Position numbers and translations under genes: made by a program
Shown here: positions 462 to 26,731 of the stretch, piece after piece
How positions within the stretch are numbered: position 1 is the stretch's first letter
Layout of the letters: each line of letters opens with the position of its first letter
Notes under the pieces: model-generated
Database searches by the model: none
What the model saw: only the letters and a program-made list of their open reading frames with translations
What the model was told of the DNA's origin: nothing
IMG/VR virus record: IMGVR_UViG_3300023184_007517
Span: 1 to 30,183 of that record
DNA length: 30,183 nt
Direction: 5' to 3' (one strand)
From: a virus

Positions 462-571
462 AGATATTTGAAATATATTAAAAAAATATATCTTTTAGCA
501 AGATAACTAAATAGTTTACACATTTAATAGTAATTCTTATCATTAAAAAAAATTTATCTCATAAAAAGAAA

Positions 572-2355: not shown

Positions 2356-3039
2356 TTACTTATTTACTTCTATTTTAATAGTGTCGCTATTGAAAGCTCT
2401 AGCAAATTTTTGTCTAAGAGTGTCTTCAGCAACTGCCCCATTTGGAAGAGCAACTTCTTCTGCTTCAACTTTTTCAAGTGCTAAAGCAGCCTCTTGCTCT
2501 TTCTTTTCCTGTTCTGAAGCAATCACTTCAGCAGATTTATTTTTTTCAGATGAAGCGCAGCCTTCTTTTTTTTCTTTCATTTTTTGTTCAGACGCTTTTT
2601 TCTCCATCATCATTTTTTTATTTTTGCCTTTTGCAAAAACATTGAAAGCTTTATACCATTTTTCAAACGAGTCAACTTCGAGGTTTTTAATTTGCTCTCC
2701 AATCACCTGGCGCTCCTCATCGTTAAGATCAAACTCTTCATCCAAAGTGGTCATTCTATTTTGGAATGTTTCCTCTATCTCTCGAGCCTGAGCTTCGATT
2801 TTGATTTTTTCAAGTTCGGCTTTTAACTGCTCGCCCACTTGCTTTAATTCTTCGAGCTGGCTCTCTAATTCGACTTTTGTTTTTTCAGCTTCGGCAATAA
2901 CGCTGTCTTTAGCGGACTGCTCTTCTGCGAACTTTTCACCAGCCTTTTTAATTTCTTCTTCAAATAAGGCGCGAATATCTGTCGCGCAAATTTGCTTTAA
3001 AGAGTCATCATTTAAATCTTGAATAGATTTTATAAGCAT
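2356..3039 (-). CDS. Nested in-frame scaffold protein (internal start of the protease gene)
   Basis: An ATG at 3039 (codon 347 of the protease-scaffold gene) is preceded by AAGGA at 3050-3054, ten bases upstream. That is a better ribosome binding site than the parent gene has. Translation from it gives a 227-aa protein starting MLIKSIQDLNDDS that contains just the coiled-coil region. Lambda C/Nu3 is the known precedent: a scaffold made from an internal start in the protease gene. The polar linker before this Met marks the domain boundary. That the shorter product is made is an inference. Confidence 0.5.
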   Translation of the reverse strand: MLIKSIQDLNDDSLKQICATDIRALFEEEIKKAGEKFAEEQSAKDSVIAEAEKTKVELESQLEELKQVGEQLKAELEKIKIEAQAREIEETFQNRMTTLDEEFDLNDEERQVIGEQIKNLEVDSFEKWYKAFNVFAKGKNKKMMMEKKASEQKMKEKKEGCASSEKNKSAEVIASEQEKKEQEAALALEKVEAEEVALPNGAVAEDTLRQKFARAFNSDTIKIEVNK

Positions 3040-4077: not shown

Positions 4078-4149
4078 TTTAATAATTTATTGTAATTTTA
4101 TTTTACACAATTATATAAAAAATGTCACTTTATTTTATATAAAATTGAT

Positions 4150-7151: not shown

Positions 7152-9182
7152 TTAGTTAATAGTTAAAGTTGAATTTGTATAGTTATAAGTTCCGGTTTTT
7201 CCACCAGCATTAGTCAGAGTAACCGTTAATCCAGTTGGTGAAGTTGCACCAAGAAAGAATTGATATGTTGCCCCTGTTGTAGGGGTTACGTTATTAAAAT
7301 CTACTGTTAATGAAGTCGTGGTAAATGATGCCGTAAGCGATATTGCTCCAAATGTTTTGGCAAAAACTCGCAAAGTGCCTGCGCTGATAGTTGTTGAGCC
7401 AGTATAGTTATTATTTTGATTGTAAGTCGTGAGCATTCCGGTCCCAACTTTTGTAAATGATCCCGATCCAGATATTTGTCCAGTTATACTAAAGCCAGAT
7501 GTTGTATTCCCTACGCTTGAGTCTGTGCCAGAAGCCAAAGTAATTGTCCCAACATAAATCGGTGTATGTCCTGCAACAACCGACTCATTCCAAAGTGCGC
7601 CGCCTCCATTTGGTCCAGCACCGCCGTTGAGCGTAATGTTATTATTGATCGTTGGGCTAGTGTAGGTTCGGAATTGCGCCCCGCTCGAAACATTTATCGT
7701 AGCGTTTCGCAGAGGCAATCCCCCAGCACCATCCTGCCCAACTGCTCCAGTGAGAATGTTTATTTGACCCAGACTGGTTGTTCCCGCCGTCCCGTTAAAA
7801 TAAATTACACCAGTCGCATTGATATTTAAAGTCTGCCCTCCTCCGTTAAGTGTGCCAGTTTGAAGGTTAATCTGGAACGATCCAAGTTTTGTTAAACTTG
7901 CCGTTGAGGTAAGGGTTATTGCTCCATTTACTGTAAAGTTGTTGGCATTGTAATTGTAAGCAAGATTGCCTCCGCTCAAGGTTGTGGTATTTAAAACCCT
8001 CGCCGTAGCATTTGTGCCATTTCCTATTTGTAGAGTTCCCGCATTTACTATAGTTCCCCCCGTGTATGTGTTTACTGCATTTGTTATTAATGTACCAGTG
8101 CCGCTTTTGGTGAGTACACCCGTTCCGCTGATGATACCAGAGAGGGTTTGATTGCTGTTTGATCCAAAAAGGAACGTGCCGTTGTTTGTAACAGTCGCGC
8201 TGTAGCTTCCGTTTCCAAGCAATCCCGTGGATCCAATTTCTAATGTACCTGAGATTGTTGTCGTTCCAGTATAGGTATTGTTTCCCAACAGGGTCTGTGT
8301 TCCACTTCCAGATTTAACTAAAGTAAGCGTGGCGGTTCCATTAGCTATTATTCCGCTAAAGCTTCCAGTTCCATTGTTTGCGCCTACTGTTATGGTACTG
8401 GCGGTACTATCAGCGCGAACTCTTCCGTTTCCATTCAAGCTCTTGATGGTAGCACCTGAGTTTGCGTCACTATTTGACCCTCTACCGACATTCATGGTAG
8501 CATTGGTGAGGGTCAAATCTGTGTTGGCAAAGTTGCTGGAACCAGCAGTAGCGAATTGCAGGTTGGAACGACCAGTGGTGGAACCAGTGCCAACTCCGTT
8601 GATAACCAGAGATCCACTCGAAGAGGCGTTATTGCGCACTACAATTCCGCTGTTCAAAGTTGTGGGATTATATGTCAGAGTCACGCCACTGGAAATGTTA
8701 ATGCCTCCGTCGAAATATAATTGGCTCAAGTTAGTGGTTGTCCCCGTGCCACTGGTCTGTATTATGGAGTTGATGGTCACGTTCACCACCGGACTTATAA
8801 CAACGAAACCAGAATTCTGATCAGAAAACAGAGTGCCGCCGTCGAGGTTGACCCCGACTTTAAGATCAGAATCAGCACCGCCGAGGGATAATGTTCCATT
8901 TGTATTTACGGTGAATGGGGCGGTAAACCCATTAAAAATAGCTCCTGAAGATGTGAGGCGGAGTATGCCCATATTAATAATTGTGGCTCCAGTGTAAGTA
9001 TTCGATCCTATAAGCGTTAATGTGCCAGTGCCGTTTTTAATAATACCGATTGTGCCAGAAATAACCGATGAAATGGTTGTCGCGGAATAAACCATAAACT
9101 GACGATACAATGCCGTCGAAGATGCTATTGCGCTTACATTGCTTGCCCCCACTTTTGCTGCGCTTGAATCAGTTATTTTCAT
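7152..9182 (-). CDS. Beta-strand-repeat (PATR-type) adhesin-like fibre protein
   Basis: This 676-aa protein is rich in Gly, Thr, Ser and Asn, with several autotransporter-associated beta-strand repeats. Each has a GTGTLTL core, then NTYTG, then a TLRL/TLEIG strand. Examples start near residues 50, 285, 355 and 610 (KNGTGTLTLIGSNTYTGAT, KSGSGTQTLLGNNTYTG, KSGTGTLITNAVNTYTGG, KVGTGMLTTYNQNNNYTGS). Such repeats form right-handed beta-helices in bacterial surface proteins. There is no signal peptide and no outer-membrane barrel, and the gene lies in a run of fibre genes, so I read it as a virion fibre or spike rather than a secreted adhesin. One sampled 60-base stretch (8101-8160) is 50% G+C, clearly above its neighbours, consistent with acquisition from another genome. 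The start is ATG at 9182, eight bases after the previous stop. Confidence 0.7.
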   Translation of the reverse strand: MKITDSSAAKVGASNVSAIASSTALYRQFMVYSATTISSVISGTIGIIKNGTGTLTLIGSNTYTGATIINMGILRLTSSGAIFNGFTAPFTVNTNGTLSLGGADSDLKVGVNLDGGTLFSDQNSGFVVISPVVNVTINSIIQTSGTGTTTNLSQLYFDGGINISSGVTLTYNPTTLNSGIVVRNNASSSGSLVINGVGTGSTTGRSNLQFATAGSSNFANTDLTLTNATMNVGRGSNSDANSGATIKSLNGNGRVRADSTASTITVGANNGTGSFSGIIANGTATLTLVKSGSGTQTLLGNNTYTGTTTISGTLEIGSTGLLGNGSYSATVTNNGTFLFGSNSNQTLSGIISGTGVLTKSGTGTLITNAVNTYTGGTIVNAGTLQIGNGTNATARVLNTTTLSGGNLAYNYNANNFTVNGAITLTSTASLTKLGSFQINLQTGTLNGGGQTLNINATGVIYFNGTAGTTSLGQINILTGAVGQDGAGGLPLRNATINVSSGAQFRTYTSPTINNNITLNGGAGPNGGGALWNESVVAGHTPIYVGTITLASGTDSSVGNTTSGFSITGQISGSGSFTKVGTGMLTTYNQNNNYTGSTTISAGTLRVFAKTFGAISLTASFTTTSLTVDFNNVTPTTGATYQFFLGATSPTGLTVTLTNAGGKTGTYNYTNSTLTIN

Positions 9183-9190
9183 ATTATAAA

Positions 9191-10129
9191 TTAGCCAACA
9201 ATTATATAAAGTGTCCCAGTTGATGGACTAGATATAGCATTATAACCAGACTGAGTTATTTGAATAAGATTTGTCAGAGCCGTAGCTCCGCTAATATTTG
9301 TTATATTACTAGCAACGTATCCAGAAGCTGCTATCTGAGCAGTAAGAAATCCACTTGGGTTTGAAGTTGGATAAAATGCACCAGTTTGAGACTGCATAAT
9401 ATAACCACTCGGATTATTACGCGGATATAAAGATGATGTGTCAACACCAGTAATAAAACCGCTAGGGTTGCTGCGAGGATATAACGAAGACGTGTCAACG
9501 CCAGTAATGAAACCGCTAGGATTACTGGACGCGTAAAAAAGTCCAGTATTATAACCAGTAATATAACCGCTAGGGTTGCTGCGAGGATATAACGAAGACG
9601 TGTCAACGCCAGTAATGAAACCGCTAGGATTACTGGACGCGTAAAAAAGTCCAGTATTATAACCAGTAATATAACCGCTAGGGTTGCTGCGAGGATATAA
9701 CGAAGACATGTCAACGCCAGTAATAAAACCGCTAGGGTTATCTTTGGTGTATAAATTCGACGTGTCAAATCCAGTAATGAAACCGCTGGGGTTATTAATT
9801 GGATAATATCTAGATAAATCACCAGACACGACAACCCCAGAAATAGTGGTTGGAAAAAGTCCAGAAATCGATCCAGATGTGACAAAACCGCTAGGATTAT
9901 TTCTTGGATAAAAAGATGTAGTATCAACATCAAAAAGGTCGCCCCGAACCATTATAGGAATACCAGAAACAAGCGGTCTATTTTCAAAATATGCATCGCC
10001 GCCTTCAATTCTAATATCGCCACCAGATATGTGCAAGCCACCAGATGGCGCGGACGCACCAATTCCTATTGAATCAGCAAAATAACCTGATTTACCGTGT
10101 AGCATTTTTGTTCTAAATATTAATGACAT
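9191..10129 (-). CDS. Tail-fibre protein with 18-residue repeats
   Basis: This 312-aa protein has a head (residues ~1-75, MSLIFRTKMLHGKSGYF... with GGLHISGGDIRIEGG) typical of phage fibre trunk proteins. It is followed by about ten copies of an 18-residue unit built around NPSGFITGVDTSSLYPRS or NPSGYITGYNTGLFYASS, and a C-terminal cap (from ~residue 265) ending in TGTLYIIVG. Regular NPSG turns every 18 residues suggest an elongated trimeric shaft. The middle units are nearly identical at DNA level and alternate in pairs, forming a 108-bp tandem repeat, so copy number could change by recombination. The start is ATG at 10129. A conserved family could not be named with certainty. Confidence 0.75.
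   Translation of the reverse strand: MSLIFRTKMLHGKSGYFADSIGIGASAPSGGLHISGGDIRIEGGDAYFENRPLVSGIPIMVRGDLFDVDTTSFYPRNNPSGFVTSGSISGLFPTTISGVVVSGDLSRYYPINNPSGFITGFDTSNLYTKDNPSGFITGVDMSSLYPRSNPSGYITGYNTGLFYASSNPSGFITGVDTSSLYPRSNPSGYITGYNTGLFYASSNPSGFITGVDTSSLYPRSNPSGFITGVDTSSLYPRNNPSGYIMQSQTGAFYPTSNPSGFLTAQIAASGYVASNITNISGATALTNLIQITQSGYNAISSPSTGTLYIIVG
9459..9782. repeat. 108-bp tandem repeat inside the fibre gene (three copies)
   Basis: Copies begin at 9459, 9567 and 9675. The first two are almost identical over the full 108 bases, and the third matches for about its first half and then diverges. Each copy encodes two 18-residue units (36 aa). Near-identity, including at third codon positions, indicates recent duplication or gene conversion. 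Confidence 0.85.
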
Positions 10130-10260
10130 TTTTATCTATCTAGCCCGCCGACCTATTTCGACATTAGTTCATTAAATATTATACACGCTTATAATATAAA
10201 TAAAAATTATTTTTTAATAGTAGACGAATTTACCAAATAAACCCACGCACATAAACAGAT

Positions 10261-11364: not shown

Positions 11365-12465
11365 TTATTGATTTGAGGCGAATACATTCAAGACGATATC
11401 ATTCTCAAGAACTTCATCAGAGAAAGAAATATCAAATCCAGTCGTAGTTCTGTTGCTTATCGAAAACGCGTAATAAACGCTTCCCTGTATAGAAACATTA
11501 ACAACCGGAGTTGAAGAAAACGCAGAACCAGGGAAACTAACGCTCATTGATTCAACGTTCTGCGTAACTGGCGTACTAAATGACTTCTGCTTAGCAAAAA
11601 GATCATCAACATAGGTTTTTGTAGTAGCATGTGAACCACTTATTGGAGCAGCCACCTCTACAGTACCAGAAAACTTACCATTTCCAGAAACTTCCAAAGC
11701 TTCAGAAGGTGTTTCGGTATTGACACCGACCTTACCATTTTCAACGAATAATGTTGTCGAAGCTCCACCGCCATTAACCTCAAAACCGCCAGAAGCAGTT
11801 ATTGTGCCAGTAACATCAAGATTTCCACTTATAATACCGCCAACTCTTTTATCGAGATAATTACTTTCAATATCAACCAAGCGAGTATCAAGCAATCCAC
11901 TTGCAGTAGCGAGTGAACTATTAAGCGTAGACACCTCAGTTGTTATTCTAGAATCAAGTATTCCAGATGCTGTAGAAATATCTGAAGACAAAGATCCACT
12001 AATATTTCCGAGTGTAGTTACGAGATTAGAAGCAAAGTTTTCATCGTCTCCCAATGCGGCAGCCAACTCATTAAGAGTGTCGAGTGCGGCAGGAGCCATA
12101 TCAATTACGCCACTAATGCGATCATCGATATATGTGTTAAGATTGCCAGACACTAAATCAATTTTACTATCAAGTATGCCGCTAGCCGTAACAAGCGCAG
12201 AAGATAAATCTGCACCAGTTTGAGCTATACTAGTAGCAAGTTCACCACTTGCCGTTGCAAGATCAGTACTAAGAGCAAACAATCCACTCCCTAAGCCAGT
12301 AGAAAGCTCGCCACTTAATTGCAATAATGAATTATTAAGAGCTACGCCAGTAGCATCAAGTTCAGAAAGGTAAGCAAAGCTCCCGCTAGCTCCCGCTTCA
12401 ACTCTACCAGCGTTGCCGCTGATATTAATATTAGTGAGTCTAATTTGTTTAAATGCGTTTATCAT
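11365..12465 (-). CDS. Tail-fibre protein
   Basis: This 366-aa protein has a fibre N-terminus (IRLTNINISGNAGRVEAG), a long region of SG/AS-rich helical repeats (ATASGELATSIAQ, TASGILDSKID and similar), the classic phage fibre motif APAALDTLNELAAALGDDEN near residue 130, and a GVNTETPSEALEVSGNGKF segment typical of fibre tips. The final ~70 residues form a separate module that resembles the end of the neighbouring 157-aa fibre protein (TGFDISFSDEVLEND...LNVFAS). It probably forms a trimeric coiled-coil shaft with a small receptor-facing or capping tip. The start is ATG at 12465; the leader contains a hexanucleotide repeat and a TATAAATA octamer upstream. A perfect terminator follows. Confidence 0.8.
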   Translation of the reverse strand: MINAFKQIRLTNINISGNAGRVEAGASGSFAYLSELDATGVALNNSLLQLSGELSTGLGSGLFALSTDLATASGELATSIAQTGADLSSALVTASGILDSKIDLVSGNLNTYIDDRISGVIDMAPAALDTLNELAAALGDDENFASNLVTTLGNISGSLSSDISTASGILDSRITTEVSTLNSSLATASGLLDTRLVDIESNYLDKRVGGIISGNLDVTGTITASGGFEVNGGGASTTLFVENGKVGVNTETPSEALEVSGNGKFSGTVEVAAPISGSHATTKTYVDDLFAKQKSFSTPVTQNVESMSVSFPGSAFSSTPVVNVSIQGSVYYAFSISNRTTTGFDISFSDEVLENDIVLNVFASNQ

Positions 12466-12524: not shown

Positions 12525-12585
12525 AGCAATCAGATACACATTACACCATTTATATTGGATATGAGAATAATTTTATACAAAAGAT

Positions 12586-16403: not shown

Positions 16404-16472
16404 CAATTTTCCTTTATTTTATTAATTTTAAAACGCAATTAACAATTGTATTATTGTATAATTCTACACGTT

Positions 16473-18404
16473 TTATAGAAAAAAGGGTGTAAAATTATAT
16501 TTGGGCTTTTCCGCTTTATCAGAATGTAGATCAAAATATACCTTAACAGCCCAGTTGCCAAGCATTAAAGCAGAATAGTTATCTTTTCTTGGTTTGTTTG
16601 CAGTCGTGAGTCTCCTCAAGTGAGAAGGGAGATCAAAACTCTGCGTTCCGCGAGCTGTTGACGAAACTTGTATCAACGCGCACTGATCTTTCGTATCTTT
16701 TATTATAAAGTCCTGTTGCTCCATAAAGTCTCTAATGCCGAGTTTGGCTCTTTCAGAAGCGTCATCGGGCGCATCATCTATACCTTTTGGATAAATATAA
16801 TCAATAGGAATATTCAAACTAAACATTTGATTTACTATGTCCGGGTGCGCGCACGAGGCACTGGCAAACCATATTCTTTTATGGTCTATACAACTTTGAA
16901 GATAACCATTAGCTCTACCTATAAATGAAGAAGTAAAGTATTGTTTAATGCATACGGTTTTAGTGTCTAAGTTATATTGAGTTTTAGCATTCTTAAGCAT
17001 TTCAATATACTCGTCACCTTCCTTATCAGAATTGAATTCAAAAAAGCCGACTTTCATTCCTTTTGCTTTAAAAATAGCTGATCCGTTTGCAGCCTCTATG
17101 AATTGATCACCACCAGCATTATCAATTATTACCAACTCTATATTAAAGTGAGTTAGTAAGTAATAAAAGTACTTTATATGATCTTGAATGCTTGTTCCAG
17201 CCTTCTGGTACCCATGAACATAAATAGAAGTACCATCTTCTTGATTTAATTCTAAAACAGCCATAGCAAAATAATCTGAACTTTTAGAAGCACTAAAACT
17301 TGGATCTATGGCTAATACATATTTTTTATCCCTATCTCCAACTATTTTAGTAGTCGGATACTGCCCATTTGGAACCGTACATAGTGTCATCTTTTTAGGT
17401 GAAAAATAACCATCGCCACCGTCTACAAATCTTGCACAATATTCTCTAAGAAACGCGGAATGACTTATTCCGCCACTTTTTGCCAGTTGTATAACGCCCT
17501 GATCAATCATATGTTCCGGCAATGATTCGTAACTCATTTGAGAAACAAAATAAGTAGAATTCTTCATCGCCTCCATTCTGTCCTCTCCTATTTTTTCCAC
17601 GTCCCCCAATAGGTTAGGATCTCTTATTATGTCTGACCAAATAGAATAAAGCTCAAAAAGATATTCGAAAGTATAACTCGCAGAACTCAGAGTTATCATT
17701 TTATTAGTATTTTTAAAAACTGTTCTATCTTTTTCAAACATCCTTCCGGCTTTAATCATCTGATCCTCAGCCTCCCTAATTCTAATTCTCTCAGCGACAT
17801 CAAGAGGGGAACTCATAAAAGGCATAAGAACCCTTTCAACTATGTCTTTAGGCATTAATAAAAATTCATCAATTACTAGAACCGAGGCTCTGTAGCCTCT
17901 CGTGTTTTCTCCACCGAGCGGTATAGCAATTATAGATCCACCGCTCGGCAATTCGACAGGGTAGATATATTCATCATTTCTCTTTATTGGATTTTTAAAA
18001 CACTGATGAGCCAAACTTGCATCTTTCGCATTCAGCATTTTATCTATTTCCATAAATAGTCTTCTCGAAGTTCTGAAGTTCGCAGAAGCTATTAATATTT
18101 TACTTCCCGGTTCAAATATGCACTGCAACACGCAGAAGACGGCGGCGCAAAAGGTCTTAGAGGCACCTCTTCCCCAAGTCAACATGCTAAAATTCCTATT
18201 AAACATGGCTTTAATAGTTATTTCTTGATACTTTTCAAGCTTTATTCCTAAAAATAATTCCGTAGTTAATCCTATATTGGATTTTAAAAATTTAGCAAGC
18301 GTTATACGTGCCGTAGGATCATCCATTTCCCCACGCATCTCCAAAAGCTCCTCATTGAAGTGCCTATCTGGAATAATAATATCTTGATTTCCTACTTCCC
18401 ACAT
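16473..18404 (-). CDS. Large terminase subunit (TerL)
   Basis: This 643-aa packaging motor has both expected domains. In the ATPase part are the Walker A variant WGRGASKT (77-84), Walker B VLVIDE (175-180) and a coupling-type motif LSSAS (239-243). In the RNase-H-like nuclease part, LAIDPSF carries the first metal Asp (367) and LVIIDNAGGDQF carries the second (428); further acidic residues near IDDAPDD (about 575) are candidates for the third. TerL binds the portal and drives DNA into the prohead. The gene is preceded by the ERCC4 nuclease gene with a three-base gap and followed by portal after 69 bases. The start is ATG at 18404, without a Shine-Dalgarno sequence. Length is normal for the family. 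Confidence 0.93.
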   Translation of the reverse strand: MWEVGNQDIIIPDRHFNEELLEMRGEMDDPTARITLAKFLKSNIGLTTELFLGIKLEKYQEITIKAMFNRNFSMLTWGRGASKTFCAAVFCVLQCIFEPGSKILIASANFRTSRRLFMEIDKMLNAKDASLAHQCFKNPIKRNDEYIYPVELPSGGSIIAIPLGGENTRGYRASVLVIDEFLLMPKDIVERVLMPFMSSPLDVAERIRIREAEDQMIKAGRMFEKDRTVFKNTNKMITLSSASYTFEYLFELYSIWSDIIRDPNLLGDVEKIGEDRMEAMKNSTYFVSQMSYESLPEHMIDQGVIQLAKSGGISHSAFLREYCARFVDGGDGYFSPKKMTLCTVPNGQYPTTKIVGDRDKKYVLAIDPSFSASKSSDYFAMAVLELNQEDGTSIYVHGYQKAGTSIQDHIKYFYYLLTHFNIELVIIDNAGGDQFIEAANGSAIFKAKGMKVGFFEFNSDKEGDEYIEMLKNAKTQYNLDTKTVCIKQYFTSSFIGRANGYLQSCIDHKRIWFASASCAHPDIVNQMFSLNIPIDYIYPKGIDDAPDDASERAKLGIRDFMEQQDFIIKDTKDQCALIQVSSTARGTQSFDLPSHLRRLTTANKPRKDNYSALMLGNWAVKVYFDLHSDKAEKPKYNFTPFFL

Positions 18405-18407
18405 ATA

Positions 18408-19340
18408 TTAAATAAGTTTATGCTCTATCAGGTATTGAAAATCTAATGTTTTTGCGGCGTCGCAATCAAGCGAAAGTATTTTAGGAATAATTTCAGATGA
18501 CTCTTTTCTACCGCCAGAGAAACAAAACTGAATCGTTTCGGGAAAGCTTTTGCATACATCTCTAAACCTATGAAATATAAAATCAGAAGACGCCTTAGCA
18601 TATCTTCCAGTTCTAGAGTAAGAAAATGATAAAAACTTATTAATATCGCACTCAGTTACTACCACTATATATCCACCAGCTTCCCTCGCCCTTGCAACTT
18701 CTCTATTGAATCTGTCAAATCCAGAAGACAGAGTGGAAACCAAATCACTCAATGATTTTCTTTCAACAGCCAGGATTTCATCACACGAGTAGTCTCCAAA
18801 CTCAAGTTTCTTGCTTATTACATCACAATTCATAAGCTTTATAGGCTTTTGCTCCCTAGTGTCTATCGTTATGTTTTTCTTGTGAATAAAATTAAAATTT
18901 AATTCATTTTTATTGTAATTATACCGCCTACTTAAACCCGTAGAATCTATAAATTCATTCAATTCATCAAAGAAAAATTTATATGTTTTAATAGAGGGCA
19001 AATAAGATATAGTTCTTATCTCCGACGATGAAGGAAAATGGCATACACTTTTTAATTTGGAATGTGAAATAATTTTATACAATAAGAATTCTTTTGCTAA
19101 ACCGTCTTTTTCTAACTTCAGCCAAGCCAACATATTCTTCTTATTTACAAAGTCAGTTAATAGATATTGCTCAAAACTTTTAAAATCAATCGATTCTTTG
19201 GTCAGCAAGTCTTTCTTATTCAAATTACGCTTTAGATACTGATCAATTTTAATACCATGAATATCCTTAATATGATTAATAAATTTATCCTTATCGTCAC
19301 ACGAATAAGTGCAGTTTTTTTCCTTACAAGAAAATTCCAT
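18408..19340 (-). CDS. C2H2 zinc finger-ERCC4 nuclease
   Basis: This 310-aa protein starts with a C2H2 finger (Cys5, Cys10, His23, His28 in SCKEKNC...INHIKDIH). After a helical middle it carries an ERCC4/XPF-type nuclease domain from about residue 155: ITIDTREQKPI with Asp160, FGDYSC, then the signature VERKSLSDLV (Glu193, Arg194, Lys195, Asp199) and a FDRFNREVARARE helix. ERCC4 nucleases cut branched or flap DNA. In a phage this could resolve replication or recombination intermediates before packaging. It is packed three bases from TerL, so a packaging-linked function is plausible. No helicase domain or tandem HhH domain is evident, so it is a stand-alone nuclease. The start is ATG at 19340. 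Confidence 0.85.
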   Translation of the reverse strand: MEFSCKEKNCTYSCDDKDKFINHIKDIHGIKIDQYLKRNLNKKDLLTKESIDFKSFEQYLLTDFVNKKNMLAWLKLEKDGLAKEFLLYKIISHSKLKSVCHFPSSSEIRTISYLPSIKTYKFFFDELNEFIDSTGLSRRYNYNKNELNFNFIHKKNITIDTREQKPIKLMNCDVISKKLEFGDYSCDEILAVERKSLSDLVSTLSSGFDRFNREVARAREAGGYIVVVTECDINKFLSFSYSRTGRYAKASSDFIFHRFRDVCKSFPETIQFCFSGGRKESSEIIPKILSLDCDAAKTLDFQYLIEHKLI

Positions 19341-19345
19341 ATATA

Positions 19346-20500
19346 TTAAGTATTGAAAATCTCCCTTGGGTCAATTCCGCGAATGACAGCCTTAAATTCA
19401 TCAACAGAAGATAGTTTTTCAACTTCTTCTTTAAGTGCTTCTCTTTGTCTTTCGGCAAGAGCAATCATTCTTTCCCTGTTCTCTTCCTGTTTCCAGGCAT
19501 AAACCAAATTCAAGATAGACGCGTTTTCATTTCTTCTTTCTTCTATTCTTTTGGATCTATTAACAGTAAGGCTCTTGTATAACTTATCCTGACGCGAAAT
19601 ACATTGATTATATTCTGTCTGAGCATTATTAATGGCTTCATTAAGACTCATGCTTATTTTTTTACCATCGGATTCGGAAGCCATCTCATCTAAAGAAATT
19701 CTAAGATATTCTATCCGCCTTTGAATGTCGGCCGCAATTACAACCTCATTTGAAAGAGTTATAAACTGATCTATTTCCTCTTGAGACAGGTCATCTTTAT
19801 CATGAGTATATCTGATAAACGCGTCCTCAAACAATTCTCTATCTTCCTGTCTAGAATAACTATTAATCTGATAAAGAAATCTAAATATTTTGAGATATGT
19901 TGACAAGGCTTCAGCGGACTTTATTTGTGCCCGTTTTAAATTTTCTTCCTTCCAGCCATAGTTTAAATACTTGTTTATTCTCGCTATTACCTGTACGAAT
20001 GTGGCTGGTGGCCTGTACTGGTCAGAAGCTATCTGGGGTCTCTTTGGATTGCTTGACGGATTGTAAACTATAGACTGAAAATCTCCCGACTCGTCCAATC
20101 TTAAATTCTTTTTATCTTCTTGATCGTCTAGAAATTTTATATAACCCTGAACAGCCCTATGCTCTCTATGTAGAGCGCTTATAGAATCATCATTAAATAA
20201 TTTTCTAGTAAATATAAGACTACTAAAATCCAAGTCCTTGACAGCTAAAGATACTTGATTCTTTTGTTCATCAGTAAGAGTGCAAGGCTCAACTTTTTCA
20301 ATAACATTAACTTTAATTTTTCCAATTTTAAATTCAGATATATACTCCTTTATACATCTGCCTTGCTTGCTTCTTCCATCCAATGAAGCATTATTAAAAA
20401 CTAACGCCGTTAATTCCGAAAGATTTGGCGTAGCTCCATTCTCAAAAGCCTGCCTAATTATCTTTTCTTGATCAGCTGTTAGGGATATAGGGTCTTCCAT
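19346..20500 (-). CDS. Unknown 384-aa protein with duplicated N-terminal module; possible small terminase
   Basis: The protein is not recognised from family motifs. Residues ~7-54 and ~75-123 are two copies of one helical module: LTADQEKIIRQAF / LTDEQKNQVSLAV, then LVFNNASL / KLFNDDSI, then a basic stretch and RCIKEYI / RAVQGYI. The rest is helical and strongly charged, with coiled-coil potential from about residue 260 to the end (RKRIEERRNENA-like segments). The duplicated module could be a DNA-binding helical unit. With TerL two genes downstream, a small-terminase role is possible but not shown. The gaps are five bases to the ERCC4 gene and twelve to the sigma-like gene, so it belongs to the same operon. 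The start is ATG at 20500. Confidence 0.7.
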   Translation of the reverse strand: MEDPISLTADQEKIIRQAFENGATPNLSELTALVFNNASLDGRSKQGRCIKEYISEFKIGKIKVNVIEKVEPCTLTDEQKNQVSLAVKDLDFSSLIFTRKLFNDDSISALHREHRAVQGYIKFLDDQEDKKNLRLDESGDFQSIVYNPSSNPKRPQIASDQYRPPATFVQVIARINKYLNYGWKEENLKRAQIKSAEALSTYLKIFRFLYQINSYSRQEDRELFEDAFIRYTHDKDDLSQEEIDQFITLSNEVVIAADIQRRIEYLRISLDEMASESDGKKISMSLNEAINNAQTEYNQCISRQDKLYKSLTVNRSKRIEERRNENASILNLVYAWKQEENRERMIALAERQREALKEEVEKLSSVDEFKAVIRGIDPREIFNT

Positions 20501-20512
20501 TTTTTATTAAAT

Positions 20513-21235
20513 TCACAATATGTCAACCATTAAATTTTTTGCAATTTTATAAATTTTGTTTTTAATTTTTTTAATTTGCTTGTATCCGGGGGATCTATTT
20601 TTTTCGCTAGTTTTATAGCCCATTTCCTGAGCCGTCTGTATCTCGCTTACATTATCTATATAAAGAAGTTTATAAACCTTCCACTCTACCTGAGACAGCT
20701 TTTCCCTTATAGTTTTGTTAAACTTGTCTATTTTAGATTCGTAATCTATATAGGAATCAAATTCCGGTATATCCATAGTGAGCCCCTGGTTTTCTTCACT
20801 ATTTGGATTATTAAATTTTTCATGGATGCTTATAGGCATTCTTATATCGTATGCGCTTTTTTTTCCCAACTCCCATTTTGAATAATCTGAACATTCGGAG
20901 TTTTGAATTGAATATAATTCGCATAAATTCCCGCCCTGATTATATTTGCATTGAGAACACGGCTTCGAGAAAGAGGAGTAATTATTTCTAACAAGGTTAG
21001 TTATCTGATTTGTAATAATGGTATTTAACCATGGCCTAAGAGGTCTTGAATTATCCCATTGGGACCATTTATTAAAAACATGAAGTCTTATTTTTTGAGA
21101 CACATCGTCAAAATCCATCCAAGCTATTGCGGTTAATCTCCATTTTGCTCTTCTTTTAGATAATTCTTGATTTATTATGTAAATACATTCTGAAAAATCT
21201 GGTCGACTACTTTCAAATAATTTTTCATCAAGCAT
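20513..21235 (-). CDS. Sigma-70-like factor with a four-Cys insert
   Basis: This 240-aa protein looks like a minimal sigma factor. Region 2 spans about residues 38-86 (WMDFDDVSQKIRLHVFNKW, then SRPLRPWLNTIITNQI and NLVRNNY), which is the core-RNA-polymerase and -10 binding helix pattern. Region 4 spans about 178-235 (LSQVEWKVYKLLYIDNVSE, then IQTAQEMGY and a basic recognition-type helix). Between them is an unusual loop with Cys93, Cys96, Cys105 and Cys115, which could bind zinc. It would direct host polymerase to phage promoters, as T4 gp55 does for late genes. The start is set at ATG 21235, one base after the zinc-ribbon stop; a GTG at 21265 would overlap that gene by 29 bases. A packaging or DNA-binding role is the alternative. 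Confidence 0.7.
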   Translation of the reverse strand: MLDEKLFESSRPDFSECIYIINQELSKRRAKWRLTAIAWMDFDDVSQKIRLHVFNKWSQWDNSRPLRPWLNTIITNQITNLVRNNYSSFSKPCSQCKYNQGGNLCELYSIQNSECSDYSKWELGKKSAYDIRMPISIHEKFNNPNSEENQGLTMDIPEFDSYIDYESKIDKFNKTIREKLSQVEWKVYKLLYIDNVSEIQTAQEMGYKTSEKNRSPGYKQIKKIKNKIYKIAKNLMVDIL

Positions 21236-21236
21236 A

Positions 21237-21776
21237 TTAATCGATCTCAATCGGTCTAGAAACACTCGATGCCTCTAATCTTATTTCTTCCAATATTTGT
21301 TGATTTGTTTTTTTAGGAAAATTCGCGTCCTCTTTCATTTGAAAATCCGTATTAGATTTAGTCTTGGAAGCGGACGAGTTTTCAATTAATTGACCAAAAG
21401 ATATACCGGAATCACTAGAGCTCTTTTCAACTATAACGCCAGACCTTTTAGCATTACGTTTAAAATTATTTATATGTCTTTGAGTTTCACTATAATCTTC
21501 GCTATCGTAATCATCATCCGATTCGTCATCATCTAAAGCCCTAGAGCGCAAGATTACGGAATCGGTAGATTTTTTTCTTTGTGCCCCGCCTTTTCTAAAT
21601 TCTGACAATTCATTTTCTAAGTCTTTGATTTTTTGAATATTTTCCGAGTCAGTATTTTCAATAGTTTTACTGGCGGCTGTCAGTGCTGCAGTTTTAGAGC
21701 CGCACTCTGGACAGAACTTCGGCTTCGAAAATTTATATTCAGTTTTGGAAAAGCAATTATTGCAATACAGTTTCAT
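21237..21776 (-). CDS. Zinc-ribbon protein upstream of the sigma-like factor
   Basis: This 179-aa protein begins with a zinc ribbon (Cys5, Cys8, Cys22, Cys25: YCNNCFSK...KFCPECGSK). A short coiled-coil helix follows (IQKIKDLENELSEFRK), then a long acidic, Ser-rich, probably disordered region (DDDESDDDYDSEDY) and a C-terminal helix (QQILEEIRLEAS). There is no enzymatic motif. It is the first gene of the minus-strand late block and is one base from the sigma-like gene, so a transcription co-factor role, comparable in position to a late-gene coactivator, is an attractive inference. The start is ATG at 21776 after an A/T-only stretch that probably holds the operon's promoter. Confidence 0.7.
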   Translation of the reverse strand: MKLYCNNCFSKTEYKFSKPKFCPECGSKTAALTAASKTIENTDSENIQKIKDLENELSEFRKGGAQRKKSTDSVILRSRALDDDESDDDYDSEDYSETQRHINNFKRNAKRSGVIVEKSSSDSGISFGQLIENSSASKTKSNTDFQMKEDANFPKKTNQQILEEIRLEASSVSRPIEID

Positions 21777-21866
21777 ATATTATATATTAATTATATATAT
21801 AAATCTATAATAATCAATTTATTTGCAGTCTCTATGCCCTTGTATCATGTAATATATTTTATGCAC
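21777..21866. promoter_or_regulatory. Divergent A/T-rich intergenic promoter region
   Basis: Ninety bases separate the minus-strand zinc-ribbon gene from the plus-strand metallopeptidase-like gene. On the plus strand there is a TATAAT at 21806-21811, without a good -35 element, and a seven-of-eight match to the late-type octamer (TATAAATC, 21798-21805). No clear minus-strand promoter could be chosen in the alternating A/T sequence. Confidence 0.35.
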
Positions 21867-22514
21867 ATGAAACTAGAAGATATTTTTAAAAAATACAAAA
21901 TAGAAGTTTTTATAAATAAAATTAAATCCCACTTGAAAGAGCGCAATGGAAAAATAATATTTAAAGATCCCTCAATAAATAAAAATGAAATAGATGGAGA
22001 GTTTTCAGAATTCGATATGACAATAAAATGCTTTTTAGATACATCTTCAACCTATTGGATGGGAGTTTTAGCGCATGAGTACTCACACTTTCTGCAGTGT
22101 ATCAATGGAAGCAAATATTGGGATGATTTTCAAATTAAGGTATCCAATATAGATAATTTAAATAATTTATTTAAAAATAGCAAAAGCATGCAAAAAATAA
22201 GCAAATCCAATAGATTAAAATTATCTCAATCCATAATAAAAATGGAATTAGATTGCGATAAATCAGCAATAGGGCTAATTAATAAATATAAACTTCCAGT
22301 TGATAAAAAAGAATATCGCTCAAAAGCTAATATAGTATTGTATAAATATTTATACTGGGGAGAGTACGGGGTTTGGCCAAGTATAATTGATAAAAAAACG
22401 GGAAAAATTTCAGACTGGAAAACGCTGGGCTTAAGCAAGCTACCTTCTGAAGACAGTTACGAAAGTGTAAATAACATACCGAGAAAATTATTTTATATAT
22501 TTCAGAATAATTAA
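21867..22514 (+). CDS. Zinc metallopeptidase-like protein (HEYSH)
   Basis: This 215-aa protein has the zincin motif HEYSH (70-74) in a helix after WMGVLAHEYSHFLQC. About 50 residues later a second helix contains MELDCDKSAI, whose Glu127 is placed to be the third zinc ligand. HExxH plus a downstream Glu is the gluzincin-like pattern, also seen in ImmA/IrrE-like and small phage peptidases. No signal peptide or membrane segment is present, so it should act in the cytoplasm. It is the only plus-strand gene between two minus-strand blocks. The start is taken as ATG 21867 because longer forms would run across the divergent zinc-ribbon gene. The substrate is unknown. Cleaving a host regulator or a phage structural protein are both open possibilities. 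Confidence 0.65.
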   Translation: MKLEDIFKKYKIEVFINKIKSHLKERNGKIIFKDPSINKNEIDGEFSEFDMTIKCFLDTSSTYWMGVLAHEYSHFLQCINGSKYWDDFQIKVSNIDNLNNLFKNSKSMQKISKSNRLKLSQSIIKMELDCDKSAIGLINKYKLPVDKKEYRSKANIVLYKYLYWGEYGVWPSIIDKKTGKISDWKTLGLSKLPSEDSYESVNNIPRKLFYIFQNN

Positions 22515-22528
22515 TTTATATTTTTAAC

Positions 22529-22716
22529 CTAAGAAATCGGCTGTCTCCAGTCGCTCTCTTCAAATACTAATTTGTCAGTTTTTTGAATAACCCACGATTG
22601 AAATGAAAATGGTGGAATTTAATATGAGGATTAAATTTTCGAAATGATTTAAATAAGTTTGTTTTTTCGATATCGAAAGAATCAGCATGATTCCACGTTA
22701 TTGTTACTAGTGCCAC
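22529..22716 (-). pseudogene. Remnant of a broken gene, probably a glycosyltransferase
   Basis: Two coding-like pieces lie in different frames. From GTG 22716, overlapping the end of the FkbM gene by ten bases, 49 residues can be read to a stop at 22567; they include VTITWNHADSFDIEKTNLF and SFRKFNPHIKFHHFHFNRG, which read like the start of a GT-A glycosyltransferase. A second frame entering near 22615 reads FSFQSWVIQKTDKLVF then EESDWRQPIS to a stop at 22529, like the end of a protein. The simplest explanation is that the middle of a gene that once followed FkbM has been deleted, fusing the ends out of frame. A short functional peptide cannot be excluded. Confidence 0.4.
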
Positions 22717-23264
22717 ATAACTATGTCAGTGCCCAACTTTTTTATTTTTGCTGTTAGTTCTTGAGCATGCTGTATGTATTCGGGTACGTATCTGTTATGC
22801 CATTCAATCCAGATTTTTTTAATGTTCGTTGGCCATCCTCTACTAATAAGATTTTCTAGTAGAGGATATTCAGACCATTCAATATCCATTTTAATATAGA
22901 TCTCATCATCTGGTTTAAATCTTTGTATAAAATTGTAAATGTCCTCCGAAGGAACTTCGACGTCAGAATGAAAATCCTCATATTCTTTTCCTCCGCCAGT
23001 ATCAGCAACAAGACTTCCTTCACTTTGACCATTAGAACCAAAACGATTAAATGTTACAGTTCCGTCTTTAATCCAAGCAGCTGCTCTGTGAAGAGTAATA
23101 TTAAGATTTTGTTCTTTGCGAAGCTGATCAAATGTTGATTCTGGCTGAGCTAAAGGATTGGGTTCAAATGAGTGAATTTCCCAATCTTTGTTTAAATTTA
23201 AGATTGGTATGAACTGCAACATACCTTCTCCGTGATGAGCTCCTAAGTCTAAAAATATTTTCAT
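22707..23264 (-). CDS. FkbM-family methyltransferase
   Basis: This 185-aa SAM-dependent methyltransferase shows FLDLGAHHGEG (SAM-binding motif I, residues 4-14), HSFEPNP (motif II, about 32-38) and YIKMDIEWSEYPLLENL (about 122-138), where the usual FkbM motif reads KIDIEGAE. The family O-methylates sugars and natural products. It is second to last in a row of sugar-modifying genes, so methylation of a phage- or host-derived glycan is likely. It is shorter than many FkbM proteins but has all core motifs. The start is ATG at 23264; about 100 non-coding bases separate it from the preceding glycosyltransferase gene. The tail overlaps the broken remnant. Confidence 0.85.
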   Translation of the reverse strand: MKIFLDLGAHHGEGMLQFIPILNLNKDWEIHSFEPNPLAQPESTFDQLRKEQNLNITLHRAAAWIKDGTVTFNRFGSNGQSEGSLVADTGGGKEYEDFHSDVEVPSEDIYNFIQRFKPDDEIYIKMDIEWSEYPLLENLISRGWPTNIKKIWIEWHNRYVPEYIQHAQELTAKIKKLGTDIVMWH

Positions 23265-23368
23265 AATGTATTTTATTTGCTGATTACTACTACTCCCACA
23301 GCAAGGAGAGGTGATGTTTGTGGTTTTAAATCAAATGTTACGATTGAACTTGTTAAAGATTTCTCGTT

Positions 23369-25171
23369 CTAGTAATTTTTAACACATCCAGTTTCATGTT
23401 GAATGTCCGATGGGAAATCGTCGACGTACATTGCTAATCTCTCATAGGCTGCATAATATTCAATATGATTCTGCAATGTATATAATACGGAATCTAACTG
23501 TATATCCATTGGAAAAATCAAATCTAAAAGTTTTTTAGCACCTTTTGGCGAAAGGATGTAAGCATGTGGACCGTTTAATTGCCCCCTTGGGATAAAAAGT
23601 TTTTTTGAAAATGGTATTTTTTGATAGTTGGTATCGTAATATCCCAAATAGCAGAAATCAAACGTGGCGGGCAATTCTTTTAAAATTTCGCATATTTCAA
23701 CGTCAAAATTTTCATTAACTAAAACATCATCATCTATAATGAAAATATTTTTGTTTTGAGATACAGCGTATTCAAATATTTTAATATGAGTCAGATAAAA
23801 CCCCAGCGCCCCAGGCGTTAGACTCAAGCCTCTCTGCACCGGTAAGCCAGAAGTGATATTGTCATACGCTCGTTTAGTAATTATTTTACTAGGTATCCAA
23901 TCGGGATTTATGTTTCTTCCATCTAATGCTGTCCATTTTTTTATTTTACTCTTAAGTATTGTACTTTTGCCAAACTCATTGGCGATAAAAAGCAATCTAT
24001 CTTTTGCTCTATCAAGATTTACGAAAAAATACTCATCAATAGTTATATCGGCACGATCGCCGCGACACTCTTCGGCTTGCTCGCTATTGAATTTCACTTT
24101 TTTCTTTAAAGGTTTTAAATATCCCTTGCTCGCAGAATGAGGCCAAATAACGAAACTTTCAGGATGGCGGTCCGATACAATTCTTAAACTCTTATTGGTT
24201 TCATTAAAATTTAAAAAGGCATCGTGCTTTCCGTAAGAAAAGTCATCCCTAACTATTAATTTACCATACTCATCTTCAACGCAAAAAAACCAAAAATCAT
24301 AATCTTCAGATTTTTCTATTTCATCACTTTCCCACTCGCATATTACATCGTACATTTCCTGCACGGGTTTGACATATTCATAAGAAAAAAGTTTTAACTC
24401 TTCTCTCCAGTTACACTTGTATAAATCGAAAAGCTCAGGATTGTTCAAGCAACACAAGTCGAATATTTTTTCATCGCTTCCTATGTATCCATTATTAATA
24501 CTCTGAGTAACGTAACGATTAAATTTATCTCTGATTATTGCCGTAAGATTCTTATGCAGAAAAAAGATTGTACCCTTCAATAATCTCCTTTGGGAAAGCA
24601 AGTGGTCTCTAGTGCTAGATATTGATCCTTCAATGTTGTCATCAATACAAAAGAATTTAATTTTATCTGGAGCTAATTTTAACTTTTCTGGATCAGGCCA
24701 TGATGTTATACCCTCAATATCTTTTTCACCCCTAATAAAGCCAGCATCAACCCAGCTAAAATAATCTGTATTAAATGGATTTCTTTGAGCTACCTCATTC
24801 AGGTAATTCACCTTATGAAACATTAAAACATTATATAATGGCTTGCTCATTTCTGGAGTTTCTGGATGCCACAATATTTCCTTAAACTGATTAGAAAACA
24901 TTAATTTTTCCAAAGATGAGTTAAATTTTTTAAATCCCTCTAATTCCTGAATTGTAGTTACTTGTATAATCGTTTTTTCAAAATTGGGATCTATTTTTGA
25001 TCTAGCTTTCCTTATTTCTTTTACAAATTTTTCTTCAGTGGCTATATGCAGCTTGATATCTAGAGATAATACGTTTTTAAACCAGTATAAATAAGTATTA
25101 TTTGGAACAGTAAAGTTTTCCCAGTTACCCCTATCAATATCAAAATAAAATGTACAAAATGTTATATCCAT
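23369..25171 (-). CDS. HtrL/YibB-GT25 fusion glycosyltransferase
   Basis: This 600-aa protein seems to be a three-part fusion. Residues 1-~275 match the HtrL/YibB pattern (ITFCTFYFDIDRGNW, NTYLYWFKNVLSLD, then NPFNTDYFSWVDAGFIRG), a family tied to lipopolysaccharide synthesis. Residues ~290-355 form a small separate segment (YDFWFFCVEDEYGKLIVRD). Residues ~377-600 are a family-25 glycosyltransferase: YFFVNLDRAKDRL, TALDGRN, LTPGALGFYLTHIKIF, the acidic metal motif IIDDDV (480-482 are DDD) and LNGPHAYILSPKGAKKLL. GT25 enzymes add sugars to LPS or proteins. The start is ATG at 25171, overlapping the previous gene by ten bases; a TTG two codons earlier is less likely. Fusion of these families suggests two linked steps on one glycan. 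Confidence 0.8.
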   Translation of the reverse strand: MDITFCTFYFDIDRGNWENFTVPNNTYLYWFKNVLSLDIKLHIATEEKFVKEIRKARSKIDPNFEKTIIQVTTIQELEGFKKFNSSLEKLMFSNQFKEILWHPETPEMSKPLYNVLMFHKVNYLNEVAQRNPFNTDYFSWVDAGFIRGEKDIEGITSWPDPEKLKLAPDKIKFFCIDDNIEGSISSTRDHLLSQRRLLKGTIFFLHKNLTAIIRDKFNRYVTQSINNGYIGSDEKIFDLCCLNNPELFDLYKCNWREELKLFSYEYVKPVQEMYDVICEWESDEIEKSEDYDFWFFCVEDEYGKLIVRDDFSYGKHDAFLNFNETNKSLRIVSDRHPESFVIWPHSASKGYLKPLKKKVKFNSEQAEECRGDRADITIDEYFFVNLDRAKDRLLFIANEFGKSTILKSKIKKWTALDGRNINPDWIPSKIITKRAYDNITSGLPVQRGLSLTPGALGFYLTHIKIFEYAVSQNKNIFIIDDDVLVNENFDVEICEILKELPATFDFCYLGYYDTNYQKIPFSKKLFIPRGQLNGPHAYILSPKGAKKLLDLIFPMDIQLDSVLYTLQNHIEYYAAYERLAMYVDDFPSDIQHETGCVKNY

Positions 25172-25917
25172 GCCCAAGTAACTCTAATATGTTTATGAAG
25201 AATATTTAACTCGTCAACATTAAAAAAATCAGAAGTATCATCTGATTTTATTATTGTATTTAATTTGAATCCATTATGATTTAAAACAGTTGGAACGAAC
25301 CCTTCACCATAACCATTATAACCGTTATTTGTAATTTCTAAAATATTTTTTAGTGCCGAATTGGAAAATCTATTTGTTGGAAAAAATGAGCCAAATAAAT
25401 CCCCCACATTTGGTGGCATTTTATCCCCATCTCCAGGAAACCTTCCGAACCAGCCGTAACTTGAACGCGATTTTTCATTTATTTCTGGAACGCTTGGTTG
25501 ACTTAATACGCCCTTGTTTTTAAAACAGAAATAAGATAGAAAGTCAGAGCTTTCCGAATTAAATGAATCAAAGAAAGCCTCCCAATTATTCATTATTATG
25601 TCATCATCAAAAAACCAATAATAATCATAGTCTGGATAAGACAAATAGAAATTAATCATTCTAAAGTGAGCGTAAAACCAAGCAACTGTTCTATATCCAC
25701 CGGGGCTCCAATAATGAAATTTACTAATCTCCTGATTTGTATAAAATTTATCTCTTAATTCAGCGTCAGTGAATCCAAACCCTTTATCAAATCCAGTATT
25801 GTTGGTTTTATCTATAATAGAAAATTTATCGCCATTATTTATTTTAGAAGACATCCATTCGTCCATATGTGGCCCATATGTTTCCGCCATTGTACACATG
25901 CAGTATGCATTATTCAT
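25162..25917 (-). CDS. GT-A-type glycosyltransferase
   Basis: This 251-aa protein has a tripled Asp metal motif (WFFDDDIIM, 104-106) behind a YPDYDYYW strand, typical of nucleotide-sugar-binding GT-A folds. Other landmarks are YWSPGGYRTVAWFYAHFRM (69-87) and YNGYGEGFVPTVLNHNGF near the C-terminus, which could be the acceptor or base region. No membrane segment is present. It overlaps both neighbours (eight bases with the upstream gene, ten with the GT25 fusion), showing a tight sugar operon. The exact CAZy family is not clear from reading alone. Confidence 0.7.
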   Translation of the reverse strand: MNNAYCMCTMAETYGPHMDEWMSSKINNGDKFSIIDKTNNTGFDKGFGFTDAELRDKFYTNQEISKFHYWSPGGYRTVAWFYAHFRMINFYLSYPDYDYYWFFDDDIIMNNWEAFFDSFNSESSDFLSYFCFKNKGVLSQPSVPEINEKSRSSYGWFGRFPGDGDKMPPNVGDLFGSFFPTNRFSNSALKNILEITNNGYNGYGEGFVPTVLNHNGFKLNTIIKSDDTSDFFNVDELNILHKHIRVTWAWI

Positions 25918-26731
25918 AATCTTTAATTAAAATTTTATTCCATTCTTCAATCCTATTGAATTGATGAACCATATCAAAAATTTTATCATCCTCAGTATAG
26001 ACTATACCTCCAATTAATTTTGGCACTTTATATCCATTATGAATAAGGGAGTTTCTTAGTCCCCAGGCTTCAAAAAAATACGTTGGACCAGAGCACTGGC
26101 AATGCATAGCCCACCCATCATGCAAATTAAAAATTTTTAATCTATCGATTTGCTTTTTTACAACCATTATTATTAATGCCGCTTGATCCTTTATATTATG
26201 TCCATTTGGACTGTTTTCGCACATATCGTCCATTTTAGAATATAGATCCAACATTGCTTGTTTTTTACCCGCTATGATTCCAGAACAAACAATTTCTGTA
26301 TTTGAGCATATATCTAGATCATTTGGAAAAACTTCGTTTATAACATTCCTATTCCACGGTTCTTGATTTACAAATATACCCTCTCCGCTAGTAAAAATAT
26401 CATAATTTTCTAAATCCATCTTTTGGAATGGGTCAGACTGGAATACGACATCAAAAACATCTGTTACTAAAAATAAATCACCATCGGACTGCTCCATGAA
26501 ATCCCTAGTATGCTTTAATCTTTTATTATTAATAAAATGAACCTCTTCGACAGTAACTAGATGGTATGATATATTTAATTCCCTACAGGTATTAATATCT
26601 TCATCTGTAGCATTGGCAGCAATTAATACAATTTCACCATCAGAATATTTTCTAAAACTTTCGGACCATGTCTTTATCTTTTGCTTATTTTGTGCTATAT
26701 TATTTGATAATCCAGTGAGTATTTTTTTCAT
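25910..26731 (-). CDS. Glycosyltransferase, nucleotide-diphospho-sugar type
   Basis: This 273-aa protein starts MKKILTGLSNNIAQNK and has an N-terminal Rossmann-like half (GEIVLIAANATDEDINTC), then an acidic motif LVTDVFDVVFQSDPF (Asp91 and Asp94) that fits a DxxD-type metal and sugar-nucleotide site. The C-terminal half contains CSGIIAGKKQAMLDL, typical of GT-A acceptor regions in this broad group. It is second in the PhoH-led operon, 21 bases after PhoH. The donor and acceptor sugars cannot be read. It may act with the next gene in one chain extension. Confidence 0.7.
   Translation of the reverse strand: MKKILTGLSNNIAQNKQKIKTWSESFRKYSDGEIVLIAANATDEDINTCRELNISYHLVTVEEVHFINNKRLKHTRDFMEQSDGDLFLVTDVFDVVFQSDPFQKMDLENYDIFTSGEGIFVNQEPWNRNVINEVFPNDLDICSNTEIVCSGIIAGKKQAMLDLYSKMDDMCENSPNGHNIKDQAALIIMVVKKQIDRLKIFNLHDGWAMHCQCSGPTYFFEAWGLRNSLIHNGYKVPKLIGGIVYTEDDKIFDMVHQFNRIEEWNKILIKDYE

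Follow-up and report, generated by a model that had tools for sequence, protein, structure and literature searches.

A sigma-70 family protein with a four-cysteine module, its zinc-ribbon neighbour and a candidate -10-only promoter class in uncultured aquatic phages

Takeover of the host RNA polymerase by phage sigma factors is known in detail mainly from T4 and from Bacillus phages. The locus described here raises the question of whether two adjoining genes of an uncultured virus, one for a sigma-like protein of 240 aa and one for a zinc-ribbon protein, make up a late-transcription system of another build. The first-pass annotation of the window (the whole stretch of DNA analysed, a 30,183-bp IMG/VR virus record) had proposed such a system by analogy with T4 gp55 and gp33, and had described segments resembling sigma regions 2 and 4 on both sides of a loop with four cysteines. 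Coordinates of the features discussed below are listed in Table 1.

The sigma protein and its cysteine module

The 240-aa protein belongs to the sigma-70 family. Its match to the Pfam family Sigma70_r2 (PF04542) scores 27.5 bits, above the curated cutoff of 24, and the NCBIfam model TIGR02937 (sigma70-ECF) matches residues 22-210 at 34.5 bits, below the curated cutoff of 42.9. A phmmer search of the protein against PDB gave no match; with the family profile, the only plausible PDB match was region 2 of CnrH (E=0.022). The AlphaFold2 model, built on an alignment of 71 sequences (mean pLDDT 80.5), consists of sigma2 helices (residues 14-86), a strand-containing Cys4 module followed by a helix (~92-124) and a four-helix sigma4-like domain (165-239), with a linker that is disordered at residues 134-143 (pLDDT below 50). 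In Foldseek, sigma factors are the top PDB matches of this model (best E=1.3e-3, with probabilities reaching 1.0), further PDB matches include the ECF factors SigH, SigL, SigE and BldN, and most of the named fold matches in BFVD are sigma factors of phages. Differences in the placement of the two domains keep the full-length TM-scores low (about 0.25-0.3); the fold match therefore rests on the domains taken separately. Pfam, NCBIfam and Foldseek place the protein inside the sigma-70 family, and not outside it as a refutation of the first-pass annotation would require.

The most conserved part of the protein is sigma2, including the segments that contact RNA polymerase and the -10 element; W32, W39, D44, Q47, H52, K56, W57, P68, W69, Q77, N80, R83, N84 and Y86 are invariant. 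For region 4, the TIGR02937 alignment extends to residue 210 and four C-terminal helices are modelled, with no region 4 family matched above its cutoff. Judged from its sequence, the protein is a two-domain factor of ECF-like build, with sigma2 and a sigma4-like domain only.

The four-cysteine loop seen in the first pass is a constant feature of the family. C93, C96, C105 and C115 are invariant in 71/71 aligned sequences (the sole other cysteine, C17, is variable), and the pattern PC-x2-C-x(6-25)-C-x(6-14)-C-x2-[YF]-x2-W was present in all 158 of the 158 sigma ORFs of relatives that were scanned. The searches for relatives, as well as the test for the ribbon gene described below, did not demand the sigma cysteines, save for one of the six patterns used in the first scan. 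The module is modelled as short strands followed by a helix (116-124), with block-mean pLDDT of 81-88 over residues 91-120, and its cysteine pattern indicates that it probably binds zinc.

In having sigma2, a linker and sigma4 without sigma1.1 or sigma3, the protein resembles ECF sigmas (group 4: CnrH, SigH, SigE) and the phage sigmas of PHROG 1740; the best sequence matches (TIGR02937 and CnrH region 2) and the fold matches are also with ECF sigmas. It differs from them in what lies between the domains, since here the Cys4 module and a long variable linker together take up residues 87-164 in place of the short unstructured linker of the ECF type. The metal-dependent CorE-like ECF sigmas (ECF44/ECF238) likewise have cysteines in the sigma2-sigma4 linker (PMC8999054). 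CorE, however, has a CXC in the linker and a C-terminal Cys-rich domain, whereas the present family lacks such a domain and its linker carries CxxC...C...C. Homology to gp55 was considered and rejected: PHROG 234 was matched neither by the sigma protein nor by its relatives, while gp55 itself, used as a control, does match phrog_234, and hhalign gave a probability of 0.3%. The protein is not a member of the gp55, CorE-like or curated ECF families.

Successive scans of IMG/VR for relatives yielded 32, then 336 and then at least 590 encoding stretches, on aquatic contigs of up to 200 kb. The carriers of the Cys4 sigma are a large and widespread group of uncultured marine and freshwater phages. 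A tblastn search with the sigma protein against 50,697 phage records produced nothing, that is, no detectable relative among the cultured phages there. Weak tblastn matches in cultured phages (Finch gp84, Bjorn, BK063668 and MT836805) were set aside, those inspected having no Cys4 module, as was ORF27 of phage T4S1, an ordinary PHROG 1740 sigma without the insert. Among bacterial genomes the Cys4 sigma turned up on only two contigs, L390 (from the MAG Halobacteriovorax sp. SP2999) and L389; these are probably phage contigs binned into metagenome-assembled genomes and give weak hints about hosts. In the literature and databases searched we found no description of the sigma family, its module, its obligate partner or the GTGTAa promoter class, all of which appear to be undescribed.

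Table 1. Positions of the features discussed (coordinates refer to the window unless a contig is named)
Feature	Position	Strand	Remarks
Zinc-ribbon partner protein, 179 aa	21237..21776	minus	N-terminal C4 ribbon
C4 zinc ribbon	21693..21770	minus	C5, C8, C22, C25 invariant in 70 sequences
Second conserved element of partner, GISFGQLIENSS	21363..21398	minus	helix 127-138
Sigma-70 family protein, 240 aa	20513..21235	minus	ATG (21235) to stop; four-Cys module between sigma2 and sigma4
Sigma2, residues 14-86	20978..21196	minus	helices 14-26, 29-32, 42-59, 66-86; Sigma70_r2 at 38-85
Cys4 module, residues 92-121	20873..20962	minus	P-C-x2-C-x8-C-x9-C-x2-Y-x2-W; C93, C96, C105, C115
Sigma4-like helical domain, residues 165-239	20519..20743	minus	conserved GYKQIK recognition-helix segment
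p384, conserved protein	19346..20500	minus	directly after sigma gene
ERCC4-type nuclease	18408..19340	minus	profile matches
Large terminase (TerL)	16473..18404	minus	phrog_2, E=7.8e-22
Host sigma70-like promoter of ribbon-sigma pair	21790..21817	minus	TTGATT-N16-TATAAT
Class B element	16465..16469	minus	upstream of portal
Two overlapping class B elements	12535..12546	minus	upstream of fibre-like gene 11365-12465
Class B element	10182..10186	minus	57 nt upstream of fibre gene 9191-10129
Class B element	4104..4108	minus	31 nt upstream of 573-aa head-region protein (2356-4077)
Class B element	517..521	minus	60 nt upstream of gene starting at 461
RHSG sigma-like gene, example	G003:3746-4339	minus
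RHSG sigma-like gene, example	G001:95466-96035	plus

The zinc-ribbon partner and the packaging block

A single base (21236) separates the zinc-ribbon ORF from the downstream sigma ORF. This arrangement, already pointed out in the first-pass annotation, is general: an ORF with the ribbon (CxxC...CxxC) ends just before the sigma gene in all 144 of the 144 loci of relatives with enough upstream sequence. The long acidic tail that was described along with it is confined to the window's clade; partners from other clades have a short tail with a small acidic patch, followed by a basic KRGRPRK-type or other end. Only zinc-ribbon matches below the cutoff were obtained for the partner in Pfam. AlphaFold2 models the ribbon (residues 1-30) with confidence (pLDDT 91-93) and adds two helices, 127-138 and 158-169, the rest of the chain being of low confidence. 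The first of these helices carries GISFGQLIENSS, which aligns with the LSYSIE...NKFxLKDxxP / FKVDVYQSKGESFGSLI motif of other clades. Zinc ribbons have been proposed as transcription factors in jumbo phages (PMC7824862). Those ribbons likewise stand alone as proteins and might contact the host transcription machinery, but they come from phages that have no sigma factor or, in phage G, form expansions, whereas here a single ribbon is obligately paired with a sigma. The protein may act as a cofactor of the sigma.

The pair does head the packaging block, as had been noted: it lies just upstream of p384, the ERCC4-type nuclease, TerL and the portal gene in the window and in near relatives. The order ribbon-sigma-p384-ERCC4 nuclease-TerL-portal is also kept in L031/L032 (41% identity), and in the more distant relative G003 the portal gene is relocated elsewhere. 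No Pfam or PHROG family was matched by p384, which sits between the sigma gene and the ERCC4 nuclease wherever the region is complete; by its position only, it is a candidate small terminase.

Several other genes of the window deserve mention. Divergent from the ribbon gene is a small gene (21873-22514, plus strand) with a metallopeptidase-like HEYSHF (HExxH) motif, kept in nearly all near relatives. Glycosyltransferase-like and methyltransferase-like genes (22707-26731, minus strand) are inserted between PhoH and the ribbon-sigma pair, and the content of this insertion differs from relative to relative. Within the structural block, a 676-aa protein (7152-9182, minus strand) has autotransporter-like repeats (TGTLTLxGxNTYTGxT), and the fibre-like protein at 9191-10129 (minus strand) has repeated NPSGFITGVDTSSLYPR units.

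Two classes of promoter-like motifs

In three long relatives (G001, G003 and G006) two motifs occur at a fixed distance from start codons, TTGAC at -35/-36 and GTGTA at -14/-15; no third promoter class with fixed spacing was found in these contigs. TTGAC with TATAAT about 17 bp downstream is a promoter of the host sigma-70 type (class A) whose transcripts are nearly leaderless. Both classes put the expected transcription start at or next to the ATG, which suggests that leaderless mRNAs are widespread in these phages. In its CTTGAC form, the -35 box is a possible clue to the host group. The ten class A genes of G003 include rIIA, rIIB, DNA ligase and the small subunit of ribonucleotide reductase (RNR), and those of G001 and G006 include genes for an endonuclease, a DNA polymerase-related protein and a protease.

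The second motif, class B (GTGTAa), is strongly associated with gene starts. GTGTA at 13-17 nt from starts was counted 17, 20 and 11 times in G001, G003 and G006, respectively, against permutation means of 1.2, 1.2 and 0.4, and 63 of the 227 occurrences of AGTGTA lay within 60 nt of a start (about 6% or less for letter permutations without overlap with the motif); such counts are not fully independent because related contigs share ancestry. An alignment of 111 class B sites, for which GTGTA itself was the selecting string, has GTGTA followed by A and an A/T-rich stretch. Upstream of the motif no position exceeds 0.12 bit, and therefore class B sites have no -35 box.

Enrichment of class B holds for the window's clade, where its distances from starts are variable (about 15-80 nt), and for every one of the six large Cys4 clades that do not include the window. 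In the window itself five of 13 upstream regions of minus-strand genes contain it (0.69 in dinucleotide shuffles, P=0.0005), while the reverse complement of the motif is found in none of the same regions. The element stands before five structural transcription units, namely portal, two fibre genes, a head-region gene and the gene whose start is at 461; a similar element precedes genes placed like the 573-aa head-region gene in G012, G013 and G014. Among ten class B genes of G003 are those for central tail fibre J, tape measure, tail fibre, tail sheath and protease, and the portal gene of this contig has the element as well. The class B genes of G001 and G006 also comprise those for the large subunit of RNR, for a Clp-like ATPase and for an endonuclease located next to a structural protein, so the class is not purely structural. 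Phage-specific and largely late is the most fitting description of it.

The ribbon-sigma pair itself has a promoter of the host type. TTGAT(A/T)-N16-TATAAT was found in 74 of 106 upstream regions of the pair in relatives (shuffle mean 8.8), and a class B site in only four of the 106, as one would expect if the factor is produced ahead of its target genes.

A possible promoter switch and its alternatives

In 11 long relatives we detected no RNA polymerase of phage origin, whether multisubunit or T7-type, with searches that did match the phiKZ and T7 controls; it is therefore the host RNA polymerase that must be redirected. The reading that we favour, with modest confidence, is that the host-transcribed Cys4 sigma and its zinc-ribbon cofactor redirect this polymerase to the -10-only GTGTAa promoters and work in a T4-like manner. 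The two proteins would then together switch promoters in a lytic phage that relies on the host enzyme. The Cys4 sigma would be made early, from the host sigma-70-type promoter, would bind the host core RNA polymerase and would direct the holoenzyme to GTGTAa promoters. The Cys4 module, the expected zinc binder, would occupy the place of sigma3 directly after sigma2. In primary sigmas, sigma3 reads the extended -10 element; the module may similarly read the GTG upstream of TAA, and a -35 contact would then be unnecessary. The zinc-ribbon protein would be a coactivator or RNA-polymerase-binding cofactor, as gp33 is for gp55 of T4. Counter to this proposal, the sigma4 domain is well conserved though class B promoters show no -35 box.

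The T4 system of gp55, gp33 and gp45 is alike in combining a phage factor of the sigma-70 family with a small partner on the host RNA polymerase (PMC2988020, PMC7892883). T4 late promoters are -10-only and resemble extended -10 promoters (PMC2988020), and class B promoters are similarly confined to the -10 region without a -35 element. Such promoters in front of structural genes are what a T4-like late system would need, and to this extent the first-pass proposal has held up. What it did not gain is homology to gp55 or a clamp of the gp45 type: PF02916 found none in the 11 long contigs, with T4 matched as a positive control, although divergent clamps could escape this profile. Furthermore, the Cys4 sigma has a sigma4-like domain of its own, unlike gp55, its partner is a zinc ribbon where that of T4 is a helical protein, and the motif is GTGTAa instead of the 8-bp TATA box. 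More tentatively, as something possible that we would not yet call probable, the phages would possess an independently evolved late-transcription system, widespread in uncultured aquatic phages, with an ECF-like sigma, a zinc module replacing sigma3 as the reader of a GTG-TAA extended -10 element, an obligate zinc-ribbon coactivator, no -35 contacts and no gp45-type clamp.

The link from class B to the Cys4 sigma is one that we infer, since a second sigma-like protein co-occurs with it and no contig separates the two. This protein, of the RHSG/KFST family, is unrelated to the Cys4 sigma, has 190-210 aa and matches phrog_351; its relatives number at least 417 in IMG/VR, and none was matched in cultured phages. 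RHSG could be the factor that reads GTGTAa, with the Cys4 sigma and the ribbon serving a smaller set of promoters or another step, e.g. the coupling of transcription to packaging. We regard this as rather unlikely, yet several observations are in its favour: RHSG was present in 11/11 of the Cys4-carrying contigs of 100 kb or more examined (G001-G011), it has a region 2 and region 4-like match of its own (phrog_351), and several RHSG genes of the near clade have TTGAC about 36 nt before the start, so that both sigmas look early. On the other hand, with a single non-host promoter class of fixed spacing, no visible sites would remain for one of the two sigmas, and it is the Cys4 pair, not RHSG, that stays fixed at the start of the packaging block. 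Attempts to separate the roles by co-occurrence failed, as the contigs with RHSG only are fragments (G031, G032, G035 and G036 also lack TerL, and G044 and G045 end at TerL), and the promoters of the two genes, both early in appearance, did not separate them either. A third sigma, an ordinary phrog_1740 ECF-like protein without the Cys insert, was seen at L243 (G002:21000-26000) and L245 (G001:17500-22500).

The partner may be a coactivator, as in the favoured reading, or else an anti-sigma factor or holding chaperone of the Cys4 sigma, like those of adjoining ECF sigma/anti-sigma pairs. Obligate adjacency and probable co-transcription of the two genes would fit such a role, and zinc is also used by ZAS anti-sigma factors (PMC8999054). 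Still, the partner has no His/Cys domain of the ZAS type, its ribbon having four cysteines without a conserved histidine, and a cytoplasmic inhibitor would here be co-expressed with a phage sigma without an evident release signal; we consider this role improbable. A zinc-ribbon protein in place of a known anti-sigma, together with candidate promoters that lack a -35 motif, sets the pair apart from ECF sigmas.

Phage ECF-like sigmas are common (phrog_1740 and the BFVD matches), and the Cys4 sigma might accordingly be an ordinary one, its cysteine knot a passive structural element and the ribbon gene an unrelated early gene kept by chance. Such an account is quite improbable, since the cysteines in 158/158 sigma ORFs and the ribbon adjacency in 144/144 loci exclude chance and, across clades down to about 35-45% identity, imply strong constraint on both. 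Recruitment of a sigma-derived DNA-binding protein to packaging (e.g. in a small-terminase role), with no further part in transcription, is very improbable given that sigma2 with its polymerase- and -10-contacting segments is the most conserved part, even though the sigma gene adjoins p384, the nuclease and TerL and, in one relative (P0003), the C-terminal domain weakly matches a small terminase (phrog_7344, E=0.008).

Redirection of the host polymerase by the Cys4 sigma and its ribbon, the reading that we prefer, comes with an explicit promoter motif and is therefore directly testable in vitro with synthetic genes. If true, it would be a second and unrelated way of using late promoters that consist of a -10 element only, and the sigma a rare example of one with a metal module as part of its body. 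With the GTGTAa motif, transcription units can also be better annotated in the genomes of hundreds of uncultured aquatic phages.
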